Source of the DNA: a virus
Length of the DNA stretch: 28,302 nucleotides
IMG/VR virus record: IMGVR_UViG_3300028840_002935
Location: 1 to 28,302 of that record
Direction: 5' to 3' (one strand)
Part shown: one piece after another, positions 23,722 to 25,833 of the stretch
How positions within the stretch are numbered: the first letter of the stretch is position 1
How the letters are laid out: each line of letters opens with the position of its first letter
Position numbers and translations under genes: made by a program
The notes under the pieces: model-generated
The model's database searches: none
The model's input: only the letters and a program-made list of their open reading frames with translations
Told to the model about the DNA's origin: nothing

Positions 23722-25532
23722 CATCTTCCTCGCGACCGTTTGTACCTGCGTGAACGTAACGCTTCAGACGGTTCAGGGCGATTTAAACCTTGCGCATTGC
23801 GCAACCCTTGACCAGCGTTATGAGGTATATGTCTAAGATACCGACCAGCGTCAAAATACGGCATCGCGGGCCGAAATTTTGGTCTATCATCTTGAGACGT
23901 AGAAAGCTCTGCTAGGCTGCTGTAAGGAATCGACACCGTAGATTCAAGAGTGTTGTTTTCAGGAATATGCGTGCGTAACGCCGGGTCTTTGAAAATAAGA
24001 TCAGCACCATGACAAAGCAGCGCGGCTGAAATTACAAAGTCCTTTGTGTCGTACGATGTGAAGAACTGTAAGTAGTTCCCAGAGTAACCTTTGATGATCC
24101 CATCATGCTCTTCGATGAAGAGTTCGTATTCTTCGGTCTTCTGTGTTTCCGGCCCCGCCGGGTAGAAGAACCTACGAGAGGTTACCTCGCGTATATACAG
24201 TTTATTCAGCAGGTCGTTAGACACAACGGAGTGCTTGTACGGGATAACAATTATCCCCTTCGGCCTGAGTATCCATTCAAAGCGTTCAAACACGGGATCA
24301 CCAATACCCGTGGCATCAATCAAAAAGTAGTGAACATTATGTTCCATTAGGAATTCAACAACGCGAGCGTATTGACCCGTCGCACCTTCAAACCGCCCCG
24401 TCAGAGGCAACCAGTTGACAAGCTGCTTCACATATTTCGCTTCGTTGTGGTCAGAGACAACAGTCGGAGCGTCCATGTGAATCTTGCCGACACATACCAC
24501 TGAGCGCGCGCCGCCGTCCTTGGCGACATCCATAGCAGCTATCTGAAATCCCTCTCTCGAGGGACCTGCCTCGACAGTCTGCAGGCCGAGCTTCTTGAAG
24601 TGCTCCATGTCAAAGACCTTACCCGTAAGGGCAACCCATTTCAGCCTGTAGTTCATACAGAATTCATCAGAGTCATACCCGAGATCTTTAACCTCGCGCT
24701 GTATGAACCTCTCGTAATTCAGATGGAACGGGTTTCGGTCTATCTTAAATTGTTCGCGCTTATCGTATATGACCTTCAGATAGTCATATTCAAAGTGGTT
24801 CTTAACACCAGTATTTTTCTCGTATTCAAGATTCTCTTTAATGGTGCTCTTAAAGAACCCTGCATTTTGGTGCAGTGAGGGAGTGCCGATCAGGACCAGC
24901 TTACCATTCGTAGCAGCAAGCATAGGCCGTAGCTCTTTACGTACCTTTGTTGCTGAGACAAGTTGTGCCTCGTCAATGATGATAAGGTGGTAAGTGAATC
25001 CCTCTTTGTCAGATGTCTCAGACGCCGTCTTAGCTGTAGCGTAGCTGCCGTTCGTCCAACGGAATTCGTCGCCGCGAGCAGCGGTAACCTTTATACCCAG
25101 CTCTTCGTAAACATCTCCTGCGCGTTCAGATTCACAAATGTCCCTGAGCTTGCCGTACACGATCTGACTCTTCTCTTGCTTCGGCGCGAACACGCCAAAG
25201 AAGAAACCGTCCTTGAATTGTGCTAGGCGCATGTCGTTAGGGAAAGTCTTCGCTAGCTCAGGGAGAATAACGCACAGACCAGAACCAACGTCAGCCAACC
25301 CAGTGGATTTACCAGATTGGCGAGAGCAAAGCTCTGTGACAGTAGCAGGCTCATAGTCGTCGGAGCTAAGGATAAAATCTTCGGGCGGGGTTTCAAGAAG
25401 GAGTGTGATGATTCGTGTCAACGCCGCTCGCTGAAAGCGATAAAACGCTCTGCCAGACAGCATTTCGCAGAAGTCTAAGATGGAAGTAACAAGCTCATCA
25501 GTCGTCTGAGGACAAATCTTTAAGGGTGGCAT
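23721..25532 (-). CDS. terL: Terminase large subunit
   Basis: The product has 603 residues from ATG 25532; a GTG at 25538 is equally possible. It is the packaging motor. The ATPase has Walker A (ELCSRQSGKSTGLA), Walker B (YHLIIIDEAQL) and a coupling motif (LVLIGTPS). The RNase H-like nuclease has its acidic residues in IAAMDVAKDGGARSVVCVGK, HYFLIDATGIGDPVFERFEW and YDTKDFVISAALLCHGADL. Size and order fit large myophage terminases. No small terminase is recognisable nearby. The last 40 residues are a variable basic tail that contains a palindromic repeat copy (23785-23804). The first bases overlap the Prp-like gene by about 35 bases. Confidence 0.94.
   Translation of the reverse strand: MPPLKICPQTTDELVTSILDFCEMLSGRAFYRFQRAALTRIITLLLETPPEDFILSSDDYEPATVTELCSRQSGKSTGLADVGSGLCVILPELAKTFPNDMRLAQFKDGFFFGVFAPKQEKSQIVYGKLRDICESERAGDVYEELGIKVTAARGDEFRWTNGSYATAKTASETSDKEGFTYHLIIIDEAQLVSATKVRKELRPMLAATNGKLVLIGTPSLHQNAGFFKSTIKENLEYEKNTGVKNHFEYDYLKVIYDKREQFKIDRNPFHLNYERFIQREVKDLGYDSDEFCMNYRLKWVALTGKVFDMEHFKKLGLQTVEAGPSREGFQIAAMDVAKDGGARSVVCVGKIHMDAPTVVSDHNEAKYVKQLVNWLPLTGRFEGATGQYARVVEFLMEHNVHYFLIDATGIGDPVFERFEWILRPKGIIVIPYKHSVVSNDLLNKLYIREVTSRRFFYPAGPETQKTEEYELFIEEHDGIIKGYSGNYLQFFTSYDTKDFVISAALLCHGADLIFKDPALRTHIPENNTLESTVSIPYSSLAELSTSQDDRPKFRPAMPYFDAGRYLRHIPHNAGQGLRNAQGLNRPEPSEALRSRRYKRSRGR
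23785..23804 (+). repeat. Palindromic repeat copy 7, inside the terL 3' end
   Basis: Core TTGCGC-ATT-GCGCAA at 23790-23804 with the AAACC flank. It is translated into the variable terminase tail, about 65 bases before the next gene's start, and is inverted relative to the intergenic copies. Confidence 0.75.
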
Positions 25533-25833
25533 GGTCACTGTATTCCGAGACCAGCACGCGAAGTGCCTCTCTCATCGAGAAATAAAAGTTGCGCGATGCG
25601 CAAGGTTTAATAAACCAGACACACAGCTCAAACCATCCTGGCTCTAGACTGTTTTTTGAGACAAAAAAAGAGGTATCTTCCGTGGTTTGAAAATACCTGT
25701 GTAAAATAAGTGCGAGAGCCGAGAAGGCTACGCATATTGGATTGTAAGAAGAGTCGCCGTCGTCAACGGCGTGGTTCGTGATCTTGAGAGTGTGTACGCC
25801 TGGTTTTGGTTGATCGAAGAAAATATGGACCAT
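25498..25833 (-). CDS. Prp-like cysteine protease, candidate prohead protease
   Basis: The product has 111 residues, the usual Prp size. The pattern ITNHAVDDGDSSYNPICVAF followed by SALALILHRYF matches the family's G/N-H-A ... (D/P)-I-C-A-x-S-A-L signature: His21 and Cys34 would be the catalytic pair, at family spacing. The C-terminal helix SMREALRVLVSEYSDHATLK fits the family's ending (a helix then an E-x-Y-P/S turn). Prp trims the N-terminus of ribosomal protein L27 in Firmicutes and also processes capsid and scaffold proteins of staphylococcal phage 80-alpha. Here a phage copy lies directly upstream of terL, suggesting a head maturation protease. A palindromic repeat is read through at residues 77-82, in the loop before that helix. 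Confidence 0.72.
   Translation of the reverse strand: MVHIFFDQPKPGVHTLKITNHAVDDGDSSYNPICVAFSALALILHRYFQTTEDTSFFVSKNSLEPGWFELCVWFIKPCASRNFYFSMREALRVLVSEYSDHATLKDLSSDD
25587..25607 (-). repeat. Palindromic repeat copy 8, inside the Prp-like gene
   Basis: Core TTGCGC-GAT-GCGCAA at 25589-25603, in the same orientation as most intergenic copies. It is translated as K-P-C-A-S-R in the Prp-like protein and lies about 55 bases before the terL start. Confidence 0.78.

Follow-up and report, generated by a model that had tools for sequence, protein, structure and literature searches.

The DNA analysed here, referred to as the window, is a stretch of 28,302 bases from a contractile-tailed phage, encoding sheath, gp19-type tube, baseplate J, gp25-like, LysM and base_V proteins. 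The head and packaging module holds a small gene, read from an ATG start in the ORF listing, whose product resembles the cysteine protease Prp; it lies upstream of the genes for the portal, scaffold and major capsid protein (MCP), on the same strand (Table 1). A previous sequence-only reading had reported a Prp-like gene next to the terminase, and it was found at exactly those coordinates, its 3' end overlapping the start of the terminase large subunit gene, terL, by 41 bases. The two genes are probably translated together. On the other side, a small Arg-rich ORF with no family match in Pfam or PHROGs stops 8 bases short of the Prp-like gene. Further upstream is a QueC-like gene, which suggests modified guanines in the phage DNA or tRNA.

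Table 1. Features of the window and, in the last nine lines, Prp-scaffold fusions at other phage loci (positions within each locus).
Feature	Position	Strand	Remarks
QueC-like 7-cyano-7-deazaguanine synthase gene	26039-26716	-	Pfam 3e-27; upstream of Prp-like gene
48-aa Arg-rich small ORF (MSRTQGRRGRGVARERTAVTGRTRVRITRRARQMGTTPRVNAIRGRAR)	25842..25988	-	strong ribosome-binding site AAGGAGATG
Prp-like cysteine protease gene	25498..25833	-	111 aa; profile, broad-HMM and hhalign matches to Prp
Active-site loop, residues 20-31	25741..25776	-	Asn20, Asn31; one residue longer than usual
His21 codon	25771..25773	-	counterpart of SaPrp catalytic His22; His in 215/215 non-redundant Prps
Cys34 codon	25732..25734	-	counterpart of SaPrp catalytic Cys34; Cys in 215/215 Prps
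Ser38 codon	25720..25722	-	counterpart of SaPrp Ser38, helix alpha1; Ser in 209/215 Prps
terL (terminase large subunit)	23721..25538	-	PHROG 2, E 9e-18; tblastn to Streptomyces phage terminases
Two small genes	between terL and portal	-	
Portal protein	20935..22938	-	PF05133, 2e-17
100-aa gene	between portal and probable scaffold	-	
Probable scaffold	19372..20607	-	coiled coil, Gln/Pro rich, between portal and MCP
Major capsid protein (MCP)	18361..19347	-	PHROG 1357, E 7e-45
QLLA, MCP residues 17-20	19288..19299	-	only candidate Prp-like site in head-protein N-termini; weak
Prp-scaffold fusion, L102	2783-4141		
Prp-scaffold fusion, L122	56-1324		
Prp-scaffold fusion, L072	4001-5398		
Prp-scaffold fusion, L347	2968-4362		
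Prp-scaffold fusion, L348	2971-4350		
Prp-scaffold fusion, L351	2818-4281		
Prp-scaffold fusion, L352	2878-4401		
Prp-scaffold fusion, L355	2255-3322		
Prp-scaffold fusion, L359	2983-4362		

Prp was the top match of the protein in three profile libraries, always below the curated cut-offs: PF04327 in Pfam (14.1 bits against a cut-off of 27; E 0.056), PHROG 4478 'peptidase' (E 0.058), and NF011122 in NCBIfam (E 0.13). The sole match in the PDB was the Prp SMU.848 (E 0.73). Direct searches with the protein found no homologue in IMG/VR, INPHARED phages or GTDB genomes, and phmmer found none among the ORFs of related phage loci. Taken by themselves, the stock score and the lack of homologues would suit a chance resemblance in an unrelated small orphan gene; 14.1 bits is in the range of noise, like the scattered chance matches seen in bacterial genomes. 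For a broad HMM, 320 Prps of phages and bacteria were gathered from phages, GTDB genomes and three phyla by search with the Pfam model, with the lowest-scoring members added by hand. Against this model the window protein scored 16.9 bits, residues 1-101 aligning to model positions 1-97 of 99, as compared to 9.9 bits with a phage-only Prp model. The single-comparison E-value of 3.5e-7 becomes about 0.009 when the roughly 24,700 Pfam families are used as a rough correction, which would make the match to Prp good, not overwhelming.

Controls pointed the same way. The window protein ranked first among 9,764 ORFs with the broad HMM (E 0.0034); the runners-up, from two Spirochaete loci, scored 13.2 and 10.9 bits, and the next ORF 6.5. 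The highest of the 17,423 scores reported from 20,000 shuffles was 9.6 bits. Only the broad model set the protein clearly apart from its shuffles; with a model of four phage sequences there was no separation, 73 of 17,796 shuffles scoring as high as the protein itself. Profile-profile comparison by hhalign with 74 Prps, the window protein left out, gave 93.5% over residues 1-102, and three other window proteins run as controls stayed below 1%. Identity to individual family members is 12-26%. A chance resemblance is thus hard to reconcile with a score that climbs as the family model broadens, that lies above every shuffle score, and that comes with a full-length, in-register alignment in which the catalytic dyad and Ser38 match; we consider it very improbable.

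Structure was predicted both from the protein alone and with guidance by the family. From the single sequence, AlphaFold2 gave a model too poor for use (pLDDT 48.5), and a Foldseek search with it returned only noise; its first elements (strands at 2-10 and 13-19, a helix at 32-47) nevertheless recur in the guided model. When given an alignment of 78 Prps, AlphaFold2 produced a ββαββαβ fold with a pLDDT of 86.7 and a pTM of 0.77, the lowest internal confidence falling in the active-site loop (residues 21-30, mean pLDDT 59). The twelve best Foldseek matches to this model were Prp chains; against all seven Prp entries in the PDB the Z-scores were 12.5-13.9, and the next unrelated structure reached 5.9. 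Because the alignment was made of Prps, these values speak of compatibility with the Prp fold and are not an independent proof of it. One Foldseek match was to Streptococcus phage SOCP, and may be a protease of the Cp-1 type. In the structure-prediction check suggested with the sequence-only reading, the Prp fold thus appeared in the guided model, and the single-sequence prediction failed overall.

The position of the gene calls for one other identity to be weighed. The gene is small and overlaps terL at its start, which is the usual place of the terminase small subunit (TerS), and a divergent TerS could sit there unrecognized. The predicted ββαββαβ fold is not helical, however, and its first half appears in the alignment-free model as well; nor did the protein match any TerS profile, the one weak match in PHROGs belonging instead to a 126-aa gene after terL. 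TerS identity was rejected on the predicted fold and the missing profile match, and is scarcely credible. The family assignment made in the earlier reading is upheld by profile statistics, profile-profile comparison and the family-guided model, even though the HMM search proposed for it fell below the cut-off with stock PF04327 and succeeded only with the broad HMM and hhalign: the window protein is very probably a highly divergent homologue of Prp (MEROPS C108).

The catalytic residues are well preserved. His21 and Cys34 lie where the sequence-only reading had located them, and the S-A-L helix that it named is present, reading C-V-A-F-S-A-L. What differs is the loop between the two catalytic residues, for which 215 non-redundant Prps were counted. 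The residue before the His is Gly in 214 of them and Asn, as in the window protein, in one (L176); the residue three before the Cys is Asp in 186 and Asn, again as in the window protein, in 10, although conservation of the Gly and Asp is somewhat overstated by a reference set partly chosen by motif searches. The His-Cys spacing is 13 in the window protein; it is 12 in 179 of the Prps and 13 in seven. In S. aureus Prp (SaPrp), the substitutions H22A, C34A, G21A, D31A and S38A each abolish activity (PMC9405229). The Gly serves the loop as a hinge and the Asp stabilizes it; both are conserved for activity without being a strict mark of the family. With His21, Cys34 and Ser38 kept, both loop residues changed to Asn, and the spacing at 13, the behaviour of the loop and the specificity of the enzyme would therefore have to differ from those of SaPrp. 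We take Asn20 to bear on activity more than on kinship, and Asn31 to be variation tolerated in divergent members.

Judged from these residues, catalysis by the window protein is plausible: Cys34 would be the nucleophile, His21 would act as general acid and contribute to the oxyanion hole, and Ser38 would hold the Cys in place. A contrary reading is a Prp-fold protein that has lost cleavage, or cleaves very poorly, and does some other job, for instance by attaching to a head or packaging protein. Both positions at which SaPrp is inactivated by G21A and D31A (PMC9405229) are changed here, the loop is longer, and the canonical substrate motif is absent from the window proteins. A dead enzyme, on the other hand, would be expected to drift, whereas His, Cys and Ser38 have all been kept, and Asn occurs at the same two positions in one and 10, respectively, of the Prps counted above. 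We regard loss of cleavage as unlikely. Variation in the loop was also seen elsewhere: several Spirochaete and Thermotogae loci (L323-L326, L307-L317 and others) carry Prps whose active-site loops are shortened or altered, e.g. GHASNEVACASVS and GHSESIVCAGVS, and which retain only the His and Cys, in lineages often lacking a long L27.

A connection between Prp and phage heads emerged more clearly from other phages than from the window itself. Ahead of the genome scan, 104 Prp loci had been collected, most of them phage contigs from IMG/VR; L029 among them is bacterial and includes L27. An L27-type cleavage motif was present near the start of a nearby protein at 25 of the 104 loci, which are not independent cases since many of the loci are close kin; as a control, the ORFs encoded by the window and its relatives, 1,444 in all, gave one spurious internal match. 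In the Prp-carrying phages the motif is of the LNLQLFA type and lies at the N-terminus of a scaffold or major head protein: those tested belonged to PHROG 172 (scaffold) or to PHROGs 840, 544, 29 and 1357 (major head proteins), and a tenth motif-bearing protein, from L029, resembles L27. In no fewer than nine IMG/VR loci, a scaffold-like protein has Prp fused to its N-terminus (Table 1). The linker contains an LQ(L/M)FA motif in eight of the nine and LQLFG in the ninth, and the next capsid gene, where visible, opens with the same kind of motif. The two of these capsid proteins that were tested, at L122 and L102, belong to PHROG 1357, the family of the window MCP. A further ORF of 261 aa (L391:2476-3258) carries its Prp domain at the C-terminal end and was left out of the fusion count; the gene after it starts with an LMWLQMFA motif.

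By guilt by association, the motif-bearing head proteins and the fusions tie phage-owned Prps to head maturation, the head proteins being presumably cleaved at these motifs. The arrangement of the fusions suggests a self-releasing polyprotein of protease and scaffold. No paper describing Prp-scaffold fusions was found in the open-access literature, and we consider them a more striking by-product of this work than the window gene itself.

The window proteins do not follow the same pattern. No L27-like N-terminal motif was found in any of them, the probable scaffold included, and a search for N-terminal motifs shared among them also came up empty. The MCP shows no evident N-terminal propeptide when compared with the capsid proteins of L122 and L102; when aligned to motif-bearing capsid proteins, it and its near relatives lack the N-terminal extension, and it begins where the mature form of the motif-bearing relatives would begin. 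The QLLA sequence near the start of the MCP sits in a helix common to the capsid family and was set aside as a cleavage site, being a likely chance occurrence (the probability of at least one such site is 0.086).

No other protease was recognized among about 30 window proteins compared with Pfam and about 20 compared with PHROGs. Within the window, which is a fragment of 28 kb, nothing thus contradicts the earlier statement that no other prohead protease lies nearby; one may still be encoded in the rest of the genome. No Prp was detected in 15 records that have terminase, portal or capsid in common with the window, among them the complete genome of Streptomyces phage LuckySocke (114 kb) and several fragments; a match in G000 was left out as circular, since the query alignment contained the window protein. 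The sequence of L013, a relative at 54% in the MCP, ends short of the region ahead of terL. No protease domain was found in ten LuckySocke proteins, mostly of the head module, and this type of head can therefore evidently be built without Prp. Between terL and portal, LuckySocke encodes a protein annotated as hypothetical (L009:13973-14182); its Acb2/Tad1 hairpin domain (Pfam 1e-12) makes it a likely cyclic-nucleotide sponge that counters host defence.

Several known systems offer points of comparison. With the Prp/YsxB family (PF04327, MEROPS C108), represented by S. aureus Prp, S. mutans SMU.848 and T. maritima TM1457, the window protein shares a full-length profile match, a similar length, the predicted fold, the catalytic His and Cys, and the Ser four residues after the Cys; it departs from them in the two Asn residues, the extra loop residue, the low identity, and scores below the curated thresholds. 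The bacterial gene lies between rplU and rpmA, whereas the window gene adjoins terL. Oenococcus phage phiS11 ('peptidase') and Lactococcus phage TP712 (orf36) likewise carry a small stand-alone Prp gene in the head module, but with a canonical GHA...DIVCA site and placed between the portal and minor head protein genes rather than before terL. The Prp-scaffold fusions share with the window a Prp in the head module and, at the two loci tested, the major capsid family, but they have a canonical active site, the linker motif (in eight of nine) and, where the next gene is visible, a motif on the capsid protein, all three of which are missing in the window. The capsid protease of phage Cp-1, cited in PMC9405229, belongs to MEROPS clan CR and acts on the N-terminus of its capsid protein, removing about 40 residues; like the window protein it is phage-encoded and assigned to that clan, in a phage of a different type. 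In 80alpha, capsid and scaffold proteins bearing an L27-like motif are cleaved by host Prp (PMC5744158), an enzyme of the same family supplied by the host, whereas in the window the protease gene belongs to the phage. Phage-encoded Prps being already known from phiS11, TP712 and Cp-1, the window gene is a divergent Prp and does not constitute a new system.

These comparisons also bear on the substrate. An active Prp might be aimed at something other than the head, be it host L27 or FlhB or an early or replication protein of the phage, in which case its place beside terL would be incidental. Prp cleaves L27, and FlhB is the proposed target in bacteria without a long L27 (PMC9405229); no head substrate motif occurs in the window; and the gene sits between the QueC and basic-peptide genes and terL, unlike the Prp of phiS11, which lies between portal and capsid. 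The characterized phage links of Prp, however, are to capsid and scaffold (80alpha, PMC5744158), and the Prp-scaffold fusions again connect phage Prps with heads. A non-head target is accordingly improbable in our estimation.

The proposal that the phage supplies its own maturation protease fared unevenly. It gains from the head links of the family, the fusions and the lack of a recognized rival in the window; it loses from the missing motif, the missing MCP propeptide, the Asn residues at loop positions critical in SaPrp, and the relatives with the same head and no detectable Prp. On this balance a role in head maturation is plausible, with perhaps slightly more to be said for it than against. 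The reading we favour, by a little over an even chance, is that the dyad is active and the protease removes an N-terminal segment from one of the phage head proteins at a non-canonical site. The substrate would be the scaffold, the capsid, the portal or some minor head protein, and the sequence cleaved would differ from the usual LQ(F/L)F↓A.

Prp is known chiefly as a bacterial enzyme that staphylococcal phages take over from their host, and a divergent phage-owned copy in a contractile-tailed phage widens its range. It also indicates that loop residues thought, from SaPrp, to be essential for activity vary in nature. The Prp-scaffold fusions lead to a testable model in which the protease would enter the procapsid as a portion of the scaffold and then release itself, much as is supposed of conventional prohead proteases. 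More tentatively, and with somewhat less than an even chance, the window gene may represent a branch of phage Prps, stand-alone and shifted in specificity, that has replaced the usual prohead protease; together with the fusions in phages of the same capsid family, it would make Prp a general class of phage-owned prohead protease. If so, the bacterial enzyme that processes L27 may have been recruited from phages, or the reverse.
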